Translations under genes and position numbers: made by a program | Origin: Mariprofundaceae bacterium | GTDB lineage: Bacteria; Pseudomonadota; Zetaproteobacteria; Mariprofundales; Mariprofundaceae | Direction: 5' to 3' | Assembly (NCBI GenBank): GCA_021772895.1 | Contig: JAJFLC010000013.1 | Location: forward strand, 1-64,000 | Length of the DNA: 64,000 nucleotides | Notes under the pieces: generated by a model | What the model saw: the letters and a program-made list of their open reading frames with translations, nothing else | The model's database searches: none | Told to the model about the DNA's origin: nothing | In this document: positions 162 through 40,540 of the stretch, piece by piece | Position numbering within the stretch: position 1 is the first letter of the stretch | Layout: each line of letters starts with the position of its first letter

Positions 162-746
162 TTAGCTCCCTTCGATAAGGTAGATCACTACCATCGTGAT
201 CAGCGCGACAACTAGAGCCTGAATGCCGCTACGCAGCCAGGAGGTGTCGGCAATGCGGCCTAGAAATACGCCGAGTAAGAAGATCATCAGCATTGCAATG
301 ATGATGGCAAGATAGAGCGGTGATAGTGGCAGTGTAATGCCCGCGTCCGCGAGCCAGAGTGGCATAAGAATCAGTAGCGAGATAACTAGCGGGGCTAATC
401 CATTGACCAGAGCAACCAGTATAGGAACCCAACGTGCAGCTTGCCCGTGTGCACTATCCTGAAGGTCAGTGGCCATCGCCTCCTCAAGTTTATCGAGAGC
501 CCTCTTTCGTTCCGCCACCTCGCTTATATATGCGCTACTCATGCCACTCATGCAGAGTGCAATGGCTGCACCTACACATACGTTGATTATAACTCTCAGA
601 TTCTCGGAGGCACTAATTAGGAAGCCGATAATGAGCCCAAGCATCGTAAGCGCACCATCAAAGCCATTAACCACAAAGTAGCGCCGAACAATATCGTGTG
701 TACGGGTAATACGAAGGAGGAACTTTGCTTGTTCTAAGAACGGCAC
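162..746 (-). CDS. VIT1/CCC1-family Fe2+/Mn2+ transporter-like membrane protein
   Basis: The 194-residue protein has about five membrane segments (roughly residues 28-47, 52-72, 107-132, 142-163 and 172-191). The first carries the family signature FVVNGFDGALTMLG; in VIT1 the Asp of this segment helps form the metal path. A charged Glu/Lys helix (about 75-92) lies between segments 2 and 3, where VIT proteins hold a metal-binding domain, but it is much shorter here, as in the small TIGR00267-like members. The family moves Fe2+ or Mn2+ across membranes by proton antiport; substrate and direction here are inferred. It starts with GTG, 6 nt after the stop of the DUF211 gene, without a clear ribosome site, so the two are probably translationally coupled. 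Confidence 0.8.
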   Translation of the reverse strand: MPFLEQAKFLLRITRTHDIVRRYFVVNGFDGALTMLGLIIGFLISASENLRVIINVCVGAAIALCMSGMSSAYISEVAERKRALDKLEEAMATDLQDSAHGQAARWVPILVALVNGLAPLVISLLILMPLWLADAGITLPLSPLYLAIIIAMLMIFLLGVFLGRIADTSWLRSGIQALVVALITMVVIYLIEGS

Positions 747-752
747 GGTAAT

Positions 753-1022
753 TTATTCTGTATCTGTTTCACTCTGCACTTCCACCTCATCAATGCTATG
801 CAGAGATCCTCCTAGGTTGCTGATAGTTGCCTGTACCGCTTCAAAATCGATAGCGTTACCGACAATCTCAATCCGGAGTGTTTCCGTATTTTCATCCACC
901 TCGACCACAGTCAATGTTATACGATAATCATTCCCAACTTCAGCAATGGCCTTGGAAAACTCCAATGCATTGGGTTGATGGGGTTTAAGAACATCCAAGA
1001 CAACTCGTTTAACAAATTCCAT
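753..1022 (-). CDS. DUF211 domain protein
   Basis: The 89-residue protein matches DUF211 over its full length: N-terminal VVLDVLKPH, central VVEVDENTETLRIEIVG, and C-terminal LGGSLHSIDEV. DUF211 proteins are small ferredoxin-like-fold proteins known mainly from archaea; their function is not established. The gene directly precedes the VIT-type transporter with a 6-nt gap, so it may be an accessory or regulatory partner of that transporter (inference from position). Its ATG begins one base after the stop of a 30-codon ORF upstream, suggesting a third coupled member. GAGGTTGAG lies about 8 nt before the ATG and may be the ribosome site. Confidence 0.8.
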   Translation of the reverse strand: MEFVKRVVLDVLKPHQPNALEFSKAIAEVGNDYRITLTVVEVDENTETLRIEIVGNAIDFEAVQATISNLGGSLHSIDEVEVQSETDTE

Positions 1023-1023
1023 A

Positions 1024-1116
1024 TCAACTCAACCTCGCAAGCTTTCCCTGCTTGAGCACAGCAAAACAGTGCGCGCCATAACATTCACACACTGATTCAA
1101 TCTCAGCGTATTTCAT
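1024..1116 (-). CDS. possible 30-residue small protein upstream of DUF211
   Basis: An ATG ORF of 30 codons ends one base before the DUF211 start. The product begins MKYAEIESVCECYGAHC and is rich in Cys near its middle (three Cys within eight residues) with a basic C-terminus. Its ATG overlaps by ATGA the stop of another open frame (about 1113-1220) that reads ...DTGSITDEELDLIMHRLNYRL but has no start codon before an in-frame TGA. The chain of touching frames may be a real coupled microprotein or the decayed end of a longer gene. No ribosome site is obvious. I do not recognise either sequence. Confidence 0.25.
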   Translation of the reverse strand: MKYAEIESVCECYGAHCFAVLKQGKLARLS

Positions 1117-1423
1117 AGCCGATAATTGAGCCTGTGCATGATGAGGTCAAGCTCCTCATCGGTTATGCTGCCAGTATCAGGAATTACTATAGAGTTTGAG
1201 AGAATGACAATTCTATCGTAGCTTCAAAACTGAATGCCCGCTTTTGCTGCGGAAACGGCCTGTCAACTTGCCACAGCAGGGTGCCACTTTGAGCCACACT
1301 CATCTACCACCTTGAATCACAATAACCTGGCACATTCATTACAACCTGCACCCAAAGGAAAAACAAGCCTACCCAGTTTTATTTGTCTGACCTTATCAAT
1401 CCACAGAGTATGATCTACCACGA
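1117..1423. other. intergenic stretch, no firm gene
   Basis: About 300 bases between the DUF211 group and the membrane-protein gene. On the minus strand an open frame of roughly 36 codons (about 1113-1220) lacks an ATG/GTG/TTG start after its upstream stop and may be a remnant. No tRNA, terminator or repeat was seen. The promoter for the DUF211-VIT pair probably lies here. Confidence 0.4.
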
Positions 1424-2002
1424 TCATTGACATGTCGTCCGCCTCCGACACATCACCATCAAAACAAATATGAGGCATGCCACTGCTGTCACCGACGGAA
1501 ACAGAACAGTTGTCAGTGAATAGTGTTCCAACGCCACGATGGCAAAAAGATTACGCACTACAAAAAGTATATAAAACATGAGTTGTTCTTCAAATGGACG
1601 GATATATGCTTTTCTGAAGGTTGGTCCAAACCCCATCACATCCACCGTTGTTAATATCACCACCGCCCATAATGGATCGGAAGTCAGATACCAAAACGGT
1701 AAGGACGACATTGCCATGATAAAAAATAACCAATCTGTTTGGGTGATCGTGTTATCTGATTTGTGCATGTATGCCAAAAATGCCACATAGATAGTGACAA
1801 TGCCTGACACACCGATTGGCCAGGCACCAACCCCTCCCTTATCTGCAAGCTGCGCCAGAAAAACCACAAATGTGGTAGAACCCCAAATCACCCAGGAAAA
1901 CAGATGCGGCTTTGTTTTCCCTTGCAAAATTGAACGTGTGTAGGGGAAAAAAGCCATCAAGGTCAATACAATCGCAACTGCGCTGAAAAGCTCTTTATAC
2001 AT
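1424..2002 (-). CDS. multi-pass membrane protein of unknown function
   Basis: The 192-residue protein is almost entirely hydrophobic with six or seven predicted membrane helices. The first helix is followed by FPYTRSILQGKTKPHLFSW, a short polar segment with a Pro and basic residues that resembles the start of PQ-loop/SemiSWEET-like repeats, but the full PQ motif is not evident, so no transport role is claimed. The C-terminus is short and basic (CRRRTTCQ). It stands alone, about 40 bp downstream of the GFA-domain gene on the same strand. Function unknown. Confidence 0.6.
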   Translation of the reverse strand: MYKELFSAVAIVLTLMAFFPYTRSILQGKTKPHLFSWVIWGSTTFVVFLAQLADKGGVGAWPIGVSGIVTIYVAFLAYMHKSDNTITQTDWLFFIMAMSSLPFWYLTSDPLWAVVILTTVDVMGFGPTFRKAYIRPFEEQLMFYILFVVRNLFAIVALEHYSLTTVLFPSVTAVACLIFVLMVMCRRRTTCQ

Positions 2003-2888: not shown

Positions 2889-3217
2889 ATTGATCCTTTC
2901 ATATCATCTTCGTTAAACCAAAATTCTATTTCCGATGTCTCAACTTCAAATGAAGCCGCATGTTCTGTATTTGCAGGAACATGATACCAGCCACCCACCG
3001 AAATTCTCTCTGTCTTTCCATCCATGGTTAAAATAAGTTCCCCTTGTGTAATGATGCCAATGTTATCTGTTTCATGTGTATGCGAATCAATGGCCGTCCC
3101 GGATGGGTATGAAGCAAAGAGAATATTGCAATGCTTCGCCTGCAATTCATAAGCATCAAAAGGGCCTTCGAATTTAGGAAGTGCAAGAATCTGATCTGGA
3201 TAATGCCTGTTCATCAT
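2885..3217 (-). CDS. small cupin-domain protein
   Basis: A single-domain cupin of about 110 residues. Cupin motif 1 is visible as HTHETDNIGIITQGELIL and motif 2 as GGWYHVPANTEHAA; the two His of HTH, a nearby Glu/Asp and the His of EHAA are the expected metal ligands. An upstream start adds ten residues, but GAGAGGGGG sits about 9 nt before the ATG at 3217, which therefore seems the true start. The stop overlaps the following VOC gene by four bases. Small cupins may be isomerases, dioxygenases or sensors; no specific role can be assigned. Confidence 0.75.
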   Translation of the reverse strand: MMNRHYPDQILALPKFEGPFDAYELQAKHCNILFASYPSGTAIDSHTHETDNIGIITQGELILTMDGKTERISVGGWYHVPANTEHAASFEVETSEIEFWFNEDDMKGSI

Positions 3218-4091: not shown

Positions 4092-4687
4092 TATGGAGCA
4101 AGCTGCCACTGATACAAACCCGGTGCCTTTTCCTGACCATATCTCGCCACTTCATTCCAAATCGCGGGGCGTTTTGTGCGCAACCTGGCAATACCAGACT
4201 GGAGAAATTGAACAAACTGTTGATCCGGTTCTTCCATTTCGGAGATGATTTTAATACCAACCAAATAAGTATTCAGTTCGTATGGGGAAGATTGAAAGGC
4301 CTGTTTATATTTGTTTAAGGCTCCATCATACATGGCAAAACGATGAAGATTGTATGCCTGATTCAAACATTCAGAACCTGTAACCTTTGCCTCAATCTTT
4401 GCCTGGCTCTCTTGTTGTGGTCTGCGTGTTAATTGTGAACGCTTATTTTGAACCCAGCCACGAAAGGCTGATTTTTGATGCACAGCAATCAACAGACGTA
4501 CAAGAGAAAACAGCACTAAAAAATTCACATTCAACACCAGAAAAGTCTGCCAATCATGTTGCGAAAATGCTTGACCATCTTGCCAAGCATGAATGAGGGG
4601 TGCGGTGTTTAAATGACTAAAATACCACTGTATAGCCAAATTCCAATTCACCATGGTCAAATTCGATAAAAAAGAGCTTTCAAACAT
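4091..4687 (-). CDS. unknown membrane-anchored protein with TPR-like C-terminal part
   Basis: I do not recognise this 198-residue protein. Residues about 48-68 (FLVLNVNFLVLFSLVRLLIA) form one membrane helix, preceded by an aromatic-rich segment and followed by a basic stretch. Residues about 105-150 (LNQAYNLHRFAMYDGALNKY and onward) look like a single tetratricopeptide-type helix pair. The start is supported by AAGGAG 6 nt upstream; that site lies inside a short hairpin. The gene is alone, followed by two hairpins, and separated from ettA by a 195-bp AT-rich gap. Confidence 0.5.
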   Translation of the reverse strand: MFESSFLSNLTMVNWNLAIQWYFSHLNTAPLIHAWQDGQAFSQHDWQTFLVLNVNFLVLFSLVRLLIAVHQKSAFRGWVQNKRSQLTRRPQQESQAKIEAKVTGSECLNQAYNLHRFAMYDGALNKYKQAFQSSPYELNTYLVGIKIISEMEEPDQQFVQFLQSGIARLRTKRPAIWNEVARYGQEKAPGLYQWQLAP

Positions 4688-6698: not shown

Positions 6699-7466
6699 AT
6701 GTCTAAATCTTTTGAGAAAGAAAGTTTTGAAAGTGATAACGATTTTAAAAATAAGATCATCATGGTCACCGGTGCGTCCTCTGGCTTAGGCCGGGCGATT
6801 GCACAACAGTTAGGTGCCAAAGGTGCCAATGTGATTGCACTCGGCCGCGATGATGAAGCTTTGGGCAAGACCCAGTCTCGCATTGAAGAGGCAGGCGGAC
6901 GTTGTCTCTGTATTCCTTTTGACCTCACCGATTTTGACAACTATGGAAAACTCTTTCTTGCCCTGAAAGATCAGGTTCCACATCTGGATGGACTGGTGCA
7001 CTGTGCAGGCAGCCTGAAACGTTGTGCCCCAATGCAACACGTGAAACCGGACGTATTCAAAGGTGCGCTGGATATTCATCTCACCGCTCCCAACCTGCTC
7101 ACCCAGATCATGTTCCCGCTACTCAAGCGCGCTAAATCTGCATCGGTCATCTTTACGACCTGTGATATGATCGATCAGGATCAACCCAACTGGCATGCTT
7201 ATGGCATGGCAAAACGTGCTCTGGGTTATGCCGCAGCGATGTGGCAAGCGGAACAACCATCAACAGGCATGCGTTTCAATACCATCAACCCGGGACGTAT
7301 GCGCACCCGAAGCTTTGAACGAGCATTTCCAGGATTAAGCCCAGCCACAGTCCCTGTTGCAGCAGATATTGCCCCTGCTTTTTTACAGATACTCTCCGAT
7401 GAAACACATGATGTTCGCGGGCAACTTTTACAGGCTTCCGATCTGTTGGAAAAGGTCATACACTAA
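6699..7466 (+). CDS. short-chain dehydrogenase-like protein (YciK-related) with altered active site
   Basis: The 255-residue protein has the classical SDR Rossmann motif TGASSGLGRA (about 24-33) for NAD(P) binding and the YGMAK motif (Y168, K172). Overall it resembles YciK. Other catalytic positions differ: the Asn of the tetrad aligns with His127 in LDIHLTAP, the Ser 13 residues before the Tyr is Cys155 in FTTCDM, and the NAG motif reads CAG. The fold and cofactor site are therefore intact but the proton relay is not standard. CAGGGAG lies 8 nt before the ATG. It is divergent from ettA and ends 2 bp from the convergent NHL-repeat gene. Substrate unknown. Confidence 0.8.
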   Translation: MSKSFEKESFESDNDFKNKIIMVTGASSGLGRAIAQQLGAKGANVIALGRDDEALGKTQSRIEEAGGRCLCIPFDLTDFDNYGKLFLALKDQVPHLDGLVHCAGSLKRCAPMQHVKPDVFKGALDIHLTAPNLLTQIMFPLLKRAKSASVIFTTCDMIDQDQPNWHAYGMAKRALGYAAAMWQAEQPSTGMRFNTINPGRMRTRSFERAFPGLSPATVPVAADIAPAFLQILSDETHDVRGQLLQASDLLEKVIH

Positions 7467-7468
7467 GT

Positions 7469-9982
7469 TCAAAGAACAGGTTGTCCCACAAGCGTAAATA
7501 TATTCAAAATCAGAGCCTGACCCTGAGCAACTGTAAACTGAACAGGCACTGCCGGTGGATAAGCAACCTGACCGGAAGCTCCTATCGGGCCACCTTCATC
7601 ACCATTTGGAAAAAACAGATCAGGATAACCTGTTGCAGAATTGAAATACATCACGTCAATGCCGTAAGTACCCGGCAATATCCCGTCAAACTGATAGTTA
7701 CCATTTGCATCTGCATGCACTGAAACAGGTGCTGGCAACATCATACTTGTCATAGGGTCCCAAATGGCATTCACATCATATGCCGTAATATATGCATCTG
7801 ATGCAGCCAGACCATTGGCATAAGTAACCGAACCACTGATCGAAGTACCAAACGTTGGGTTATAAAGCTGAGCATTTGCAGTAACAGTTCCACCAAACTG
7901 CGAATAATAATTCCCTGGAGATGAAGGCGGGATCAGAACCCCTCCATTGCCATCAAAATAACCGCCAATGTCTCCATTTGGAAATGGGGAAAGCAAACCC
8001 GTCATAGGGTCTATATAATCTACCCGAAGTGTGTGGGAACTAACAGGCAGGTTTTCGAAAACAAATCGACCAGCTGCATCTGTGAAAGCATCGGTAATCA
8101 CGAGCGTAGAGTTTGCTTGAACTAATGCGCCTGCCACTGGCATACCTATTGAATCTGTTACAGTACCTGTAATTGTCATTTGATTTGGGAAATTTGAAAA
8201 CACAAGATCTGTGGCATTTAACTGCTCGCCATTCACAACTCTCGTGTATCTTGATTCTGTGAATGGCTCAATTCCACCATCCCATATTCCATTCTCATTT
8301 GTATCAATAAATGCTTGAACAATATATTTGTCACTATCTGAGACAATTGGCCCAAACTGATATCGACCATTCAAACCACTCGCATACCCTTCCTCTACCA
8401 AAGCGGGAAAGAAAATATCATTATATAACGAGATGTGATATAGCCCTGATACACCCGTTAAGTTAATAATTTGTCCGGTGATTGTCCCAAGCTTTGGCTG
8501 TAAGGCTTCAGTTGATTCCATCTTTCTAATTCGCAAATGATCACTATCGGAGACATATAAACCACCTTGCTTATCAACTGCAATTGCATTTGAGAAGCCA
8601 AGTTGAGCCATGATGCCCGGCCCTCCATCGCCATTCAACATTGGGTTCACATTCATAACGCCACTACCCACTACGGTAGTGATTATCCCGGTATAAGCAT
8701 CAATCTTACGAACTCTGTAATTCCCAGCATCTGCGACATAAAGATTCCCTTGGTAATCTACCTTTATGTCTCTAACAGGATTAAATGCCGCATTCACTGC
8801 CAAGTAACCGTCACCACTGAATCCGGGTGAACCATTGCCAGCTACTACTCTAAGTTGTCCCCCTACAGGAAACGGAGAAAAAGGCACAACGTACTCAATC
8901 ATATTATCGATTGTAATGATCTGATCGAAATCATTACTAAAATAGATTTTACCTTGCCGATCAACAGCTAAATGGCGTGCATTAATAGGGCTCGAAGCTG
9001 GCATTCCATTTATGATAGGAGCAGAAAATCCGGACCCATCACCTGCTACCGTTGTAATAATTCCATTGCTATCAATCTTACGAATCGCCCCGTTGTCTCG
9101 CTCAGCCACATAAAGATTCCCAGATGCATCAAACACCAAATCGCGAGGCCCAAGTATAGAGGCGTTGGTTGCAGGCCCCCCATCACCCATAAAAGGAATC
9201 ATCGAAGCATATGAATCCCCTGCTACAGTTGTAATGATTCCAGAGGTGTCAATTTTGCGAATTGCATTATTAAAAGCCTCGGCAATATACAGATTACCAA
9301 CGGCATCAAAAGCCAAACCTCGTGGGTTGAATAACGAAGCATTAAGCGCAGGCCCATTGTCTCCAAAAAATGGGGCTGCATTGGCATTTCCTGCTATCGT
9401 TGTGACAATTCCGGCAGCATCAATCTTTCTGATTCTATCATAACCGATTGTTCGATCTGAATAGTAAATATTTCCATATTTATCTAATACAATCTCTTTA
9501 GTATCCACGAGCGCATCCCAAGCTGGAATACCATCACTCATAGGGTCACCAATGCCGCCACCCGCGATCGTAGTAATAATTCCAGCTGGCGGAGTATTAG
9601 CTATTGTAAGGTTGACTCCGGAAACGGGTACTCCTCCAATTATATTAATAGCCGAGGAAACGACAAAAGGCTCACCAGCAGAAATAGCTGGCCCATCTAA
9701 AGCAACATCTACCGAGGCTCTCAGGTAATAAACACCATCAACAAGGTTTCCCATTCCAGGCAATTGATAGCTACCTGAAGTAACAATACCAAAACTCTGT
9801 ACTTCTAAAAAAGTATTTAATTGCGGATTATCAAACAATTCAACAAACAACATGCCAGTTTGCCCACTGTTATTACTCACAGTTCCTGAAATAGAATTAG
9901 CTTGAGCTGTAGAAGAAAACACCCCCATCAGCAGTGATAAAAAAACAAAGAAACAATATACCAAACGATTATTAAATAACAT
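7469..9982 (-). CDS. secreted NHL-repeat protein with carboxypeptidase-regulatory-like domains
   Basis: The 837-residue protein begins with a signal peptide (hydrophobic core YCFFVFLSLLMGVFSS, probable cleavage after AQA). Residues about 30-130 form a beta-rich domain. Residues about 135-490 hold about six NHL-type blades, each with a form of GDGGPA..A, NLYVAD and IRKID..GIITTVAG, predicting a beta-propeller. Residues about 495-837 hold three carboxypeptidase-regulatory-like beta-sandwich modules (TGTVTDSIGMPVAGALV, SGSVTYANGLAASDAYI). The architecture suggests extracellular binding, not catalysis. No membrane anchor, lipobox or sorting domain is seen. AAGGGGAG precedes the ATG. It is a single-gene unit preceded by a 460-bp gap. 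Confidence 0.8.
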   Translation of the reverse strand: MLFNNRLVYCFFVFLSLLMGVFSSTAQANSISGTVSNNSGQTGMLFVELFDNPQLNTFLEVQSFGIVTSGSYQLPGMGNLVDGVYYLRASVDVALDGPAISAGEPFVVSSAINIIGGVPVSGVNLTIANTPPAGIITTIAGGGIGDPMSDGIPAWDALVDTKEIVLDKYGNIYYSDRTIGYDRIRKIDAAGIVTTIAGNANAAPFFGDNGPALNASLFNPRGLAFDAVGNLYIAEAFNNAIRKIDTSGIITTVAGDSYASMIPFMGDGGPATNASILGPRDLVFDASGNLYVAERDNGAIRKIDSNGIITTVAGDGSGFSAPIINGMPASSPINARHLAVDRQGKIYFSNDFDQIITIDNMIEYVVPFSPFPVGGQLRVVAGNGSPGFSGDGYLAVNAAFNPVRDIKVDYQGNLYVADAGNYRVRKIDAYTGIITTVVGSGVMNVNPMLNGDGGPGIMAQLGFSNAIAVDKQGGLYVSDSDHLRIRKMESTEALQPKLGTITGQIINLTGVSGLYHISLYNDIFFPALVEEGYASGLNGRYQFGPIVSDSDKYIVQAFIDTNENGIWDGGIEPFTESRYTRVVNGEQLNATDLVFSNFPNQMTITGTVTDSIGMPVAGALVQANSTLVITDAFTDAAGRFVFENLPVSSHTLRVDYIDPMTGLLSPFPNGDIGGYFDGNGGVLIPPSSPGNYYSQFGGTVTANAQLYNPTFGTSISGSVTYANGLAASDAYITAYDVNAIWDPMTSMMLPAPVSVHADANGNYQFDGILPGTYGIDVMYFNSATGYPDLFFPNGDEGGPIGASGQVAYPPAVPVQFTVAQGQALILNIFTLVGQPVL

Positions 9983-36463: not shown

Positions 36464-36928
36464 ATGTCTGATGTTCAATTTTTAATTCCAAAAAAAGATC
36501 GCCCTGTATGGCCTGCAACAGCTGATGTGTTGCCGATTGAAGCTGCTGACATGACTGAGATCCCTTTGCTTGGCTGGGTCGCTGCCGGACAACCTGTTGA
36601 TCTGTTTGAACAGCAGGAAAATATCTCTGTCCCCTCCAATATGGTTCGTAAAGATACCTATGCCCTTCGAGTGCGTGGTGATTCGATGATTGATGATAAC
36701 ATCGAAGATGGTGATGTGATTGTGGTGGAAAAGCGTGCCACCGCAGAGAATGGTCAATCTGTCGTTGCAATGATCAATGGTGAGACGGTCACACTCAAAA
36801 AATTCTACATCGAAAAAGATGGTGTACGCCTGCAACCCGCCAACCCTGCTCTGAACCCTATTTATCTAAAAAATGGTGATATTCAAATTCTTGGTATTGT
36901 CATGGGTGTAATCCGAACCCCAAGTTAA
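36464..36928 (+). CDS. LexA-like S24 protease without DNA-binding domain
   Basis: AGGGAG lies about 7 nt before the ATG at 36464; the upstream GTG at 36446 is less likely. The 154-residue product starts MSDVQFLIPKKDR and then has the LexA C-terminal fold: autocleavage Ala-Gly in GWVAAGQPVD, catalytic Ser in RGDSMID, catalytic Lys in GETVTLKKF, and a C-terminal LGIVMGVIR strand. There is no helix-turn-helix and no room for one before the gene. It could be a UmuD-like protein, but no umuC is adjacent, and its core is closer to LexA. It lies just upstream of the attC-bearing cassettes. Confidence 0.8.
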   Translation: MSDVQFLIPKKDRPVWPATADVLPIEAADMTEIPLLGWVAAGQPVDLFEQQENISVPSNMVRKDTYALRVRGDSMIDDNIEDGDVIVVEKRATAENGQSVVAMINGETVTLKKFYIEKDGVRLQPANPALNPIYLKNGDIQILGIVMGVIRTPS

Positions 36929-37009
36929 ATGCACCCGCAAAAAGCTTCCTTCCTTGTTTTATCTTTCATAGGCAACATCAAAAAAACTAAGGGCGTATAA
37001 GGGAAATAC

Positions 37010-37069
37010 ATGGAAAAAACACACGTATTAACAAGTTATGTTTTAAAGATAGAGAATGGCTTTGAATAA
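37010..37069 (+). CDS. possible 19-codon leader ORF
   Basis: An ATG frame (MEKTHVLTSYVLKIENGFE) ends inside the start region of the first cassette gene, overlapping it by 14 bp. It begins just after a core-site-like GCGTATAAGGG that mirrors the start of cassette 2. Short overlapping leaders are common in cassette genes, but there is no other support. Confidence 0.2.
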   Translation: MEKTHVLTSYVLKIENGFE

Positions 37070-37316
37070 ATTATTGCAAGGTGATGAGCTTGAAAAAAGA
37101 GCTATTGAGCTTGGAATTGATATTCAAGGTGATCCAATTACACAAAGCAAAATGGGGCGCCATAAACGCGCAGATGACAGTGAACTACAACGGAGAGTTC
37201 TTGAGGCAGAGCGTAGCAATCGTGAATCTAGGTTATGGCTTTTCGCATTAGTGTCTTCTATAGCGTCAGTGATAAGCGCAGCAACAGCAATTATTGTAGT
37301 TGGTTATGGTAAATAA
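37056..37316 (+). CDS. cassette gene 1: small protein with C-terminal membrane helix
   Basis: The 86-residue product starts MALNKLLQGDELEKRAIELG; residues about 60-82 (LWLFALVSSIASVISAATAIIVVGYG) form one membrane helix preceded by a charged helix (SELQRRVLEAERSNRESR). It ends 4 bp before an attC-like palindrome, the usual layout of an integron gene cassette. AGAGA precedes the ATG. No function is known. Composition is more AT-rich than the neighbouring lexA-like and polA genes. Confidence 0.6.
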   Translation: MALNKLLQGDELEKRAIELGIDIQGDPITQSKMGRHKRADDSELQRRVLEAERSNRESRLWLFALVSSIASVISAATAIIVVGYGK

Positions 37317-37319
37317 AAA

Positions 37320-37394
37320 ACATAACAGACGCATAGAGTCCGACATATTTTGTCACTACGTTCCAAAATATTCGGCTCATGCAACACGTTATAA
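37320..37394 (+). other. attC-like recombination site 1
   Basis: An imperfect palindrome of about 75 bp. It opens ATAACAGACGCAT and closes ATGCAACACGTTATAA, so the outer ATAAC/GTTAT, then GCAT/ATGC, GAG/CTC, CCGA/TCGG and ATATTTTG/CAAAATAT pair in order with unpaired bases between them, around an 11-base loop. This spaced pairing with extrahelical bases is the structure recognised by integron integrases. The presumed core site is GTTATAA at 37388, a near fit to GTTRRRY. Cassette 2 starts right after it. Confidence 0.7.
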
Positions 37395-37400
37395 GGCAAA

Positions 37401-37613
37401 ATGAAAAAACTTAATCCAGTTCTGATAATGGCTTTTTGTTTCGTCTTTCTATTGTCTGGGTGCAAAGAGACCACGCCAATTGATGCAACTTCGTTTAAAA
37501 AGCTGTGGGAGGAATCTGGTAAAAATTCTGCGGTTTCGTGGTGGTATGCTGGAGAGTCAGAAGGTCATTATCTAATCGAAGAGAAATGGCCAACTAAGCA
37601 AACTGCCTTATAA
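37401..37613 (+). CDS. cassette gene 2: small lipoprotein
   Basis: The 70-residue product has a lipoprotein signal, MKKLNPVLIMAFCFVFLLSGC, with lipobox LSGC (Cys21). The mature part is only about 50 residues (KETTPIDATSFKKLWEESGK and on), with WW and a Glu-rich tail. The ATG is 6 bp past the presumed core site of attC-like site 1, and its stop lies inside the second attC-like site. No known family is recognised; tiny envelope proteins are common in chromosomal cassette arrays. Confidence 0.65.
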   Translation: MKKLNPVLIMAFCFVFLLSGCKETTPIDATSFKKLWEESGKNSAVSWWYAGESEGHYLIEEKWPTKQTAL

Positions 37614-37668
37614 TCAAAGCGCTTCAGCCGGTGCCAAAAAATGGCGCGGCTAGGCTTAAACGTTAGAC
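37609..37668 (+). other. attC-like recombination site 2
   Basis: A roughly 60-bp imperfect palindrome. The 5' arm TATAATCAAAGCGCTTCAGCCGG pairs with the 3' arm CGGCTAGGCTTAAACGTTAGAC: AGCC/GGCT, AAGC/GCTT and GGTGCCA/TGGCGC align around an A-rich loop, and the site ends in GTTAGAC, a perfect GTTRRRY core site with the cut expected after the first G. CGCTTCAGCC and AAACGTTAGAC are typical of published cassette attC sites. It ends the array, 115 bp before polA. Confidence 0.75.
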
Positions 37669-37783
37669 TGGCAATTTGTCGGTTTTTTTATTACAAGGTA
37701 AAAGAACAAACTGGAAGGCTTACGCATTGCCGCTTTTCTTCATCTAAGGCATCCTCCTCCCCTATTCCCGACTTGGAGTCTGC

Positions 37784-40540
37784 ATGCCTCACTTAGTTCT
37801 CATTGATGGGCCAAATTACGTATTTCGTGCATTCCACGCCGTCCGCCATCTCACCAACAGCAAAGGTGAACCTACCAATGCCGTATTCGGCTATGTGCAA
37901 ATGCTCAAGAGCGTATTGGGAAGGCTTGCGCCTACCCATGTCGCTGTCGCATTTGATCCCAAGGGTGGCACGTTCCGCAATCAAATGTATTCGGAATACA
38001 AAGCGCATCGCCCGCCCATGCCGGAAGAATTGGCAGAACAATGGCCAAAGGTGCTGGAAGTTACCCATGCGTTTAACCTGCCACTGATCTGTATTGAGAA
38101 TTATGAAGCAGATGATGTGATTGCCACGCTGGCAATTCAGGCAGAAAAAGAGGGCTGGGATGTCACCATTGTCTCCACAGACAAAGATCTGATGCAACTG
38201 GTCAACAAGCGCATTCACATGCTCGATACCATGAAAGACATTGAATATGATCCAGCAGCGGTCAAAGACAAATGGGGTGTCGAACCCACACGTATTCATG
38301 ATCTTCTGGCACTGGCTGGCGATTCAGCCGATAACATTCCCGGTGTGCCCGGCATTGGTCCAAAAACTGCCGTACAACTGCTTGATGCTTATGGCGATCT
38401 GGAAGGTGTATTGGCCAGGGCTGGTGAAATCAAACAGAACAAGCGGCGCGAAAATCTGATTGAATTTGCCGATGATGCGCGTCTCTCTTATCGACTGGTT
38501 GCACTGGATCATGAAACACCTGTCGGATGTAGCATTGCAGACCTTGCAACCCAAACGCCAAACCGTGAGGAGCTGGCAAGACTTTTTACACAACTGGAAT
38601 TTAAACGACTGGTTGAAGAGTATGGTGGCGATGCAATAAAACAAACGACCCCGCCCAAAGATGTTTCCAGCCCAACATCCGAACCGTCCAAACCATCTGA
38701 ACCGAAAGAAAACATCCCGTGTAATAATCGGCTTGTTGATGATGAAACATCATTCAAGGCGCTACTGATCGCTCTGAACGATGCCAGCCTGATTGCGATT
38801 GATACCGAAACCACATCACTGAATACCCATGATGCAGAGATTGTGGGTCTATCCTTTGCCGTTAAACCCGGTGAAGGATGGTACCTGCCCGTTGGCCACC
38901 GTGCAGCCGATCTGCTTGACCCAACACCCAAACAACTGGATCGAGAGCACGTACTTAAGATATTAAAACCTATCCTTGAAGATGCCAGCAAAGCCAAGTG
39001 CGGCCATAACCTCAAATACGATGCGCAGGTATTACGGCGCGCAGGCATCAATCTTTCCGGAATTACAGCCGATTCCATGCTGCTTGCTTATTGCCTTTAC
39101 CCCGCCAAATATCCACCCAAGATGGATACAGTCGCAGAAGACTATCTCGGCCATCACTGTATTGCTTATGAAGAGGTTGCCGGGAAAGGTGCCAAACAGA
39201 TCAACTTTGCCCATGTTCCGATTGAAACTGCACTTCCATATGCTGCTGAGGATGCAGAGGTATCGCTACGTCTAACAGAGCTTTTAAAAGAAAGGCTCAA
39301 TGCTGAAAATCGTCTTAAACGACATGATGAGATCGAACTTCCGGTCTCATATGTGCTGACGGACATGGAATGGACAGGCACAAAAATCGACAAAGCTACG
39401 TTGGCAAAACTGTCCGGTGAATTTGGCACACGCATTGATGTATTAGAAACAAAAATTCATGCTGCGGCAGGCCAGGAATTTAATATTCAGTCACCCAAAC
39501 AACTCGGTGAACTTCTTTTTGATACGCTTGAAATTCCCGGTGGCAAGAAAACCAAATCCGGTCAGTGGGCAACAGGTCAGGAAGTGTTGGAAAAGCTGGC
39601 CGATGAACATGAAGTTCCTCGTCTTGTGTTGGAAGTGCGCCAACTCTCCAAACTCAAATCCACCTACACCGATGCCCTGCAAAAACTGATTCATTCTGAA
39701 ACCGGACGGGTACATACATCATACAATCAGGCGATCACAACCACAGGCCGCCTCTCTTCAACTGAACCTAATTTACAAAACATCCCCATCCGTACAGAAG
39801 CAGGCCGGATGATTCGAAAAGCATTTATCGCTGAAGAAGGGAGCATTCTTCTTGCCGCAGACTATTCGCAGATTGAGCTGCGTCTGATGGCCCATTTTTC
39901 ACAGGATGAGGCATTGATTCGAGCGTTCTCAGAAGCTCAGGATATTCATGCCGCGACCGCCGCCGCTGTGAATAATGTCGACCTTTCAGATGTAACGGGT
40001 GAAATGCGCCGCCATGCCAAGATCATCAATTTTGGCATTCTCTATGGTATGAGTGCATTTGGTCTCTCCAAGCAACTTGGCTTGGGGCGGAGTGAATCGC
40101 AGGCCTTCATTGATGCTTATTTTGAACGTTACCCGACTGTACGTAACTTTATGGATCGGACACTCGAACATGCCAAAGAACAAGGTTATGTAGAAACACT
40201 TCTGGGCCATAGGGTGTATGTGCCGGATATCAACGCCAAAAATGGCATGCACCGCGCTTATGCGGAACGAACAGCGATCAATGCGCCGCTGCAAGGCTCT
40301 GCATCTGACATCATCAAAGTCGCCATGATCAACCTGCATAAACGGCTTAAATATGTGTACCCTGATGCCAAAATGACCCTACAGGTTCACGATGAACTGG
40401 TCATAGAATGCCCGGAGAAACAGAGCAATGAAATCAGTCGCATTGTGAAAGAAGTGATGGAAAGCGCTGTAACGCTTCATGTGCCGCTCGCCGTGGATAT
40501 TGGAAAAGGGAAAAACTGGTTTGAGGCACACCAATTATGA
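37784..40540 (+). CDS. polA: DNA polymerase I
   Basis: The 918-residue protein has the three PolA domains: 5' nuclease (about 1-290; DGPNYVFRAFHA, NYEADDVIATLA, GVPGIGPKTA), 3'-5' exonuclease (about 325-510, with the Asp/Glu of AIDTETTSL and NLKYDAQVL) and polymerase (motif A AADYSQIELRLMAH, motif B RRHAKIINFGILYG, motif C QVHDELVIE). The exonuclease acidic residues are present, so proofreading is expected. It processes Okazaki fragments and fills repair gaps. GGAGTCTGC precedes the ATG. Confidence 0.95.
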   Translation: MPHLVLIDGPNYVFRAFHAVRHLTNSKGEPTNAVFGYVQMLKSVLGRLAPTHVAVAFDPKGGTFRNQMYSEYKAHRPPMPEELAEQWPKVLEVTHAFNLPLICIENYEADDVIATLAIQAEKEGWDVTIVSTDKDLMQLVNKRIHMLDTMKDIEYDPAAVKDKWGVEPTRIHDLLALAGDSADNIPGVPGIGPKTAVQLLDAYGDLEGVLARAGEIKQNKRRENLIEFADDARLSYRLVALDHETPVGCSIADLATQTPNREELARLFTQLEFKRLVEEYGGDAIKQTTPPKDVSSPTSEPSKPSEPKENIPCNNRLVDDETSFKALLIALNDASLIAIDTETTSLNTHDAEIVGLSFAVKPGEGWYLPVGHRAADLLDPTPKQLDREHVLKILKPILEDASKAKCGHNLKYDAQVLRRAGINLSGITADSMLLAYCLYPAKYPPKMDTVAEDYLGHHCIAYEEVAGKGAKQINFAHVPIETALPYAAEDAEVSLRLTELLKERLNAENRLKRHDEIELPVSYVLTDMEWTGTKIDKATLAKLSGEFGTRIDVLETKIHAAAGQEFNIQSPKQLGELLFDTLEIPGGKKTKSGQWATGQEVLEKLADEHEVPRLVLEVRQLSKLKSTYTDALQKLIHSETGRVHTSYNQAITTTGRLSSTEPNLQNIPIRTEAGRMIRKAFIAEEGSILLAADYSQIELRLMAHFSQDEALIRAFSEAQDIHAATAAAVNNVDLSDVTGEMRRHAKIINFGILYGMSAFGLSKQLGLGRSESQAFIDAYFERYPTVRNFMDRTLEHAKEQGYVETLLGHRVYVPDINAKNGMHRAYAERTAINAPLQGSASDIIKVAMINLHKRLKYVYPDAKMTLQVHDELVIECPEKQSNEISRIVKEVMESAVTLHVPLAVDIGKGKNWFEAHQL

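Follow-up and report, generated by a model that had tools for sequence, protein, structure and literature searches.

A probable integron lacking only its integrase gene, with an attI site and two cassettes, between a LexA-like gene and polA in a Mariprofundaceae bacterium

Gene content of the LexA-like/polA interval

We analysed a window of 64,000 nucleotides from the genome of a Mariprofundaceae bacterium, a relative of iron-oxidisers, in which a small gene-capture array sits between a LexA-like gene and polA. All features of the locus lie on the plus strand. The S24/LexA-like gene on the left (36464-36928; PF00717, E 6e-31) and polA on the right (37784-40540; PF00476, E 7e-163) are chromosomal; the former lies outside the insert and is also found upstream of polA in two genomes of the same genus, G003 and G002. 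Between them lie an attI site without an integrase gene (36948-37041), a first gene cassette of 353 bp (37036-37388) ending in attC1 (37320-37394) and a second of 274 bp (37389-37662) ending in attC2 (37608-37668). A terminator-like stem with a T run (37665-37685) stands directly after the array; it comes from a pattern scan only, which found 2 such elements against 0.8 expected. A search of Rfam over the whole window matched no family.

The original prediction had described two tiny open reading frames of 86 and 70 codons, each followed by an imperfect palindrome, and both frames and both palindromes are present where it placed them. The ORF of cassette 1 (37056-37316) encodes a small protein of 86 aa with a hydrophobic C-terminal segment, for which we found no Pfam family above cut-off and no PADLOC or PHROGs match. 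It is 54% identical to a protein of Mariprofundus ferrooxydans PV-1 (G069). That homologue (L086, G069:C3:724000-740000, at 7368-7634) is located some 1.5 kb away from an orphan attI on the minus strand (9181-9274), and no attC of its own was seen. Another relative of the cassette 1 protein (70% over residues 1-69) occurs in a Sedimentisphaerales (Planctomycetota) MAG (L199, 5007-5258), where its neighbours are a trpE-like and a trpG-like gene and no attC lies in the vicinity. The ORF of cassette 2 (37401-37613) encodes a putative small lipoprotein of 70 aa (LLSGC) with no relative in the order, in plasmids or in viral contigs; its PHROGs match, with an E-value of only 0.088, is at chance level and was set aside. 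Neither cassette protein matched plasmids, viral contigs or PADLOC. The cassette genes may still be transcribed, either from within the attI region or through read-through.

attC sites and cassette boundaries

attC sites were detected with a covariance model (R2) trained on 16 attC sites taken from intI-linked arrays in other genomes of the same family, which was used instead of the covariance model of IntegronFinder. The E-values of R2, like those of the attI model R1 described below, are rough because calibration was shortened. attC1 has the outer motifs R'' ACATAAC and R' GTTATAA and the inner arms GCATaGAGtCCGAc and TCGGCTCATGC, with extrahelical bases on the 5' arm (GCATaGAGtCCGAc) only. 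It scored 33.7 bits (E 3e-5) and folded better than its shuffles, with DNA z-scores of -4.2 for the top strand and -4.6 for the bottom strand, which bears out its assignment as an integron attC.

attC2 ends in the core GTTAGAC (37662-37668). In place, it reached 10.2 bits with R2 (E 0.14 over 1 kb), and its fold was not significant (z about -1). Such weakness is to be expected of an inserted cassette, whose 3' core derives from the old target and not from the cassette. When the circular forms were folded, cassette 2 rejoined to its own start gave a z-score of -4.5, and cassette 1 gave -6.8. The full attC anatomy, with R''/R' and L''/L' arms, extrahelical bases and a GTTRRRY-like core, is therefore seen at attC1 and, in the circular form only, at attC2. 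In the covariance check proposed in the original prediction, attC1 was matched by the family-trained model and attC2 was borderline in place. With at least two attC and no proximal intI, the array falls under the definition of a CALIN, although attC2 is borderline by model score.

The limits of the cassettes could be read from the complementarity between the start of each cassette and its own R''. In cassette 1, the 10 nt GTTATGTTTT (37035-37044) are exactly complementary to AAAACATAAC (37317-37326), and in cassette 2 the 10 nt TTATAAGGCA (37389-37398) are exactly complementary to TGCCTTATAA (37604-37613), here after one mismatch. These two inverted pairs set the cassette limits at 37036-37388 and 37389-37662. 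The same rule holds over 8-10 nt in the intI-linked arrays of the family, one run of 4 nt excepted, and a 10-nt match was obtained in 13 of 2000 trials at random positions. By these sequence comparisons, the array consists of two real cassettes with exact boundaries, each ending in an attC.

An attI site ahead of the first cassette

The region upstream of the first cassette resembles, at 74-76% identity over 94-98 bp (blastn, E 2e-8), the attI sites that stand beside an intact intI in relatives. The match covers the 95 bp to the left of the crossover G at 37035 (GTTATGT), and in the relatives its counterpart separates intI from the first cassette. A sequence model built from eight intI-linked attI sites only (R1) recovered the window site in its own genome with 45.4 bits (E 1.5e-11). 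In a phylum sample of 120 genomes, R1 matched 19 of the 28 family genomes and none of the other 92. An alignment of the family attI sites (A1) displays a conserved block, GGGCGTATA...TAATACATGGA...ACGTATTA...AAGTTA. By position and homology, 36948-37041 is thus identified as an attI, lying upstream of the first cassette as in a complete integron.

The original prediction had overlooked this site, as well as the approximately 11 such sites in the genome, and had read GCGTATAAGGG (36993-37003) as a decayed first core. That reading was abandoned, as alignment A1 places these bases in an internal part of the conserved attI; the true first core is at G37035. Because an attI is present, we consider that the element is probably an integron lacking only intI, formed of attI and two cassettes, rather than a plain cluster of attC sites.

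The same interval in relatives and the missing integrase gene

Comparison with the same genus indicates that the array was inserted. In G003, the interval between the LexA-like gene and polA measures only 98 bp, i.e. the site is empty, so the insert is not an ancestral feature of this interval. The arrangement is thus not conserved in all relatives, the outcome that the original prediction had named as counting against it. In G002, which belongs to another species, the interval is filled by a PAS-domain-like sensor gene (L007, 2342-3388, plus strand, G002:C19), labelled from its sequence and with no family search; the interval therefore accepts different inserts. Local alignments to G002 extend along the left flank up to 36954 and resume on the right from 37711, so that the insert comprises little besides attI, the two cassettes and a short tail. 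In the alignments to G002 and G003, the intergenic DNA shared with these relatives resumes at 37711-37721, left of polA. Going by these alignments, the insert is missing from the LexA-like/polA interval in those sequenced genus relatives that could be read, and we found no relative with intI at this site. A chimeric-protein search of the orthologous loci in the genus relatives found synteny broken except at L124, and an exact empty site could therefore be read for the window locus only.

The divergent intI of a complete integron is missing. The LexA-like stop codon lies 20 bp from attI, leaving no room for an integrase gene there. The window locus holds no trace of intI, and its junction coincides with the left edge of attI. 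Across the 2.45-Mb genome (98.5% complete), the best TIGR02249 scores were 70.8 and 67.6 bits, far below the cut-off of 265, and control genomes also give matches below the cut-off. The original prediction of an array without intI thus holds at the locus and, as far as matches above the family cut-off are concerned, genome-wide. Within the order, 26 of 78 genomes carry intI.

attI and attC sites elsewhere in the genome and the order

A whole-genome search for more sites, also proposed in the original prediction, found 11 attI-like sites with R1 and eight attC sites with R2 at E < 0.07, attC1 of the window included. Six of the eight attC sites are downstream of an attI on the same strand, and two have no attI nearby. 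Of the 93 tabulated attI hits in the order, 11 have an intI no more than 1.5 kb away, and the other 82 lack one within that distance; in 33 of the 36 plus-strand orphans, the contig extends for 1.1 kb or more on the side where intI would be.

The genes first after the other attI sites of the genome mostly belong to no known family. At L121 (G000:C7:1-5500), the first gene after the orphan attI encodes a KAP-family P-loop ATPase (232-1593, minus strand), which matches the PADLOC candidate defence family PDC-S20 (E 1e-101). At L120 (G000:C1:105700-112700), a gene for an RsgA-like GTPase lies between attC-like sites of an array; an RsgA-like GTPase gene is also found in G002 between dapF and its neighbour (L183, G002:C26), where the genome studied here has an attI array. 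Three of its own sites (L119b, L120 and L125) have no intact GTT core beside attI, and several others yielded no match under the start/end rule. At L119 (G000:C4:234700-243000), tandem copies of attI that include the left flank (2926-3137 and 4167-4381) are followed by different genes. In L072 (G019:C15:1-4300), a single intact intI is accompanied by two attI separated by about 800 bp; ahead of the second lies sequence that matches the 5' end of intI.

Origin of the integrase-less site

Because the cassette boundaries are exact, we infer that the cassettes were brought in by IntI. They would have entered one after another, by IntI-catalysed recombination between attI and attC at G|TT. The intI gene, which in relatives is divergent and just left of attI, would then have been lost, so that attI now abuts ancestral intergenic DNA. 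Repeated loss of this kind would account for the roughly eleven attI sites of this genome and for the many others across the family, and the remaining array would be frozen unless an integrase were supplied in trans.

Loss of intI in place is the best account of the orphan attI sites. Two orphans of G003 occupy loci of integrons in other genera. At L128, a methyltransferase gene is kept and attI lies 156 bp away, with intI missing; the same gene adjoins intI in G076 and G008 and is in the same intI flank in G073. L129 adjoins queG, as intI does in G008. At L124 of the genome studied here, an N-terminal remnant of intI (33 aa, E 1e-6) is followed by a stop, and N-terminal remnants also occur in relatives at L134 and L137. 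The positions of L128 and L129 together with the remnant at L124 support loss in place.

Two observations concern these loci themselves. What appeared to be an intact intI beside L129 is in fact queG. The class I methyltransferase gene (L051, 2461-3060; also L044, L064 and L128) stands next to the 3' end of intI in two genera and is a possible integron-associated gene.

Many orphan attI share a left edge, about -95 from the core, while their flanks are unrelated, and such a common edge is not obviously expected from random deletions of intI. It would fit an attI-led unit that disperses, the segment from the left edge of attI to the core of an attC or of a second attI being excised and re-inserted by an IntI acting in trans. 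The 11 scattered sites in a genome where intI was not found, and the lack of an attI-segment match at the orthologous loci examined in genus relatives, also point this way, and class 1 cassettes in which a whole or partial attI substitutes for attC were shown to be excised and inserted by IntI1 (PMC12901181). We nevertheless regard this as unlikely, as two orphans occupy the loci of intact integrons in other genera, several retain the 5' codons of intI, and apart from CCTTG|TTT no recombination core is evident at the left edge. The tandem pair at L119 duplicates the left flank too, which speaks for ordinary duplication. That attI and cassettes of the Mariprofundaceae form dispersing, integrase-less mini-arrays at many intergenic sites, with the integrase supplied in trans, is if anything slightly less probable still; if true, the landing pad for gene capture would itself be mobile.

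It is improbable that the cell has a complete integron whose intI is missing from the draft assembly. The assembly comprises 24 contigs at 98.5% completeness, but at the window locus it leaves no gap on the intI side, the LexA-like gene being 20 bp off, and the left sides of the other attI sites of the genome also lie inside contigs. An intI elsewhere, in a part of the genome missing from the contigs, is conceivable. Slightly more improbable is that an integrase located elsewhere inserted the cassettes off-target (attG) directly into the chromosome, in which case the attC cluster would have been without an attI from the start. This is a known route to attC clusters (PMC8618304), and two attC-like sites of the genome have no attI nearby; in the window, however, a full attI, significant in two independent searches, precedes cassette 1. 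Chance palindromes beside two small chromosomal genes, with no integron at all, can practically be dismissed, since the weakness of attC2 in place is set against the score of attC1, the complementarity at both cassettes, the attI homology and the empty site in a relative.

Comparison with known integrons

Three routes have been proposed by which cassette clusters without an integrase arise (PMC8618304); intI loss is one of them (PMC8618304, PMC9024848), and intI loss that leaves arrays behind has been described in Xanthomonas (PMC12444791). Retained attI sites discriminate among these routes, and with an attI model specific to the family such cases can be counted: 82 of the 93 attI hits in the order have no intI beside them. 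The scattered sites suggest that cassettes can settle singly or in small numbers at many chromosomal loci, one of them with a candidate phage-defence ATPase.

Like the CALINs of IntegronFinder, which are proposed to be degraded integrons (PMC9024848), the window array has cassettes and attC but no integrase; it differs in its conserved attI, which reveals its origin. IntegronFinder detects no attI outside class 1 (PMC9024848), so that such sites would be counted as plain CALINs, or missed where a single attC is left. In Xanthomonas, too, in-place loss of intI leaves cassette arrays and further attC clusters lie elsewhere, but intI, where it survives, is at ilvD, and the extra clusters are at seven loci across the species examined (PMC12444791), whereas here about eleven attI-bearing loci lie in one genome in which no intI was found. 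The delta-attI cassettes of class 1 and 2 integrons likewise hold an attI away from its usual place beside intI, but in those a complete or fragmentary attI takes the place of attC, downstream of the gene and within the array (PMC12901181), while the window attI is upstream, chromosomal and of a dispersed kind. The intact chromosomal integrons of the Mariprofundaceae (for example those of G019, G010, G008 and G088) share with the window array the kind of attI and attC, the attC arm pattern and the cassette boundary rule, the attI of G019 being about 75% identical; they differ in having intI and, in some cases, longer arrays, with five attC sites in G010.
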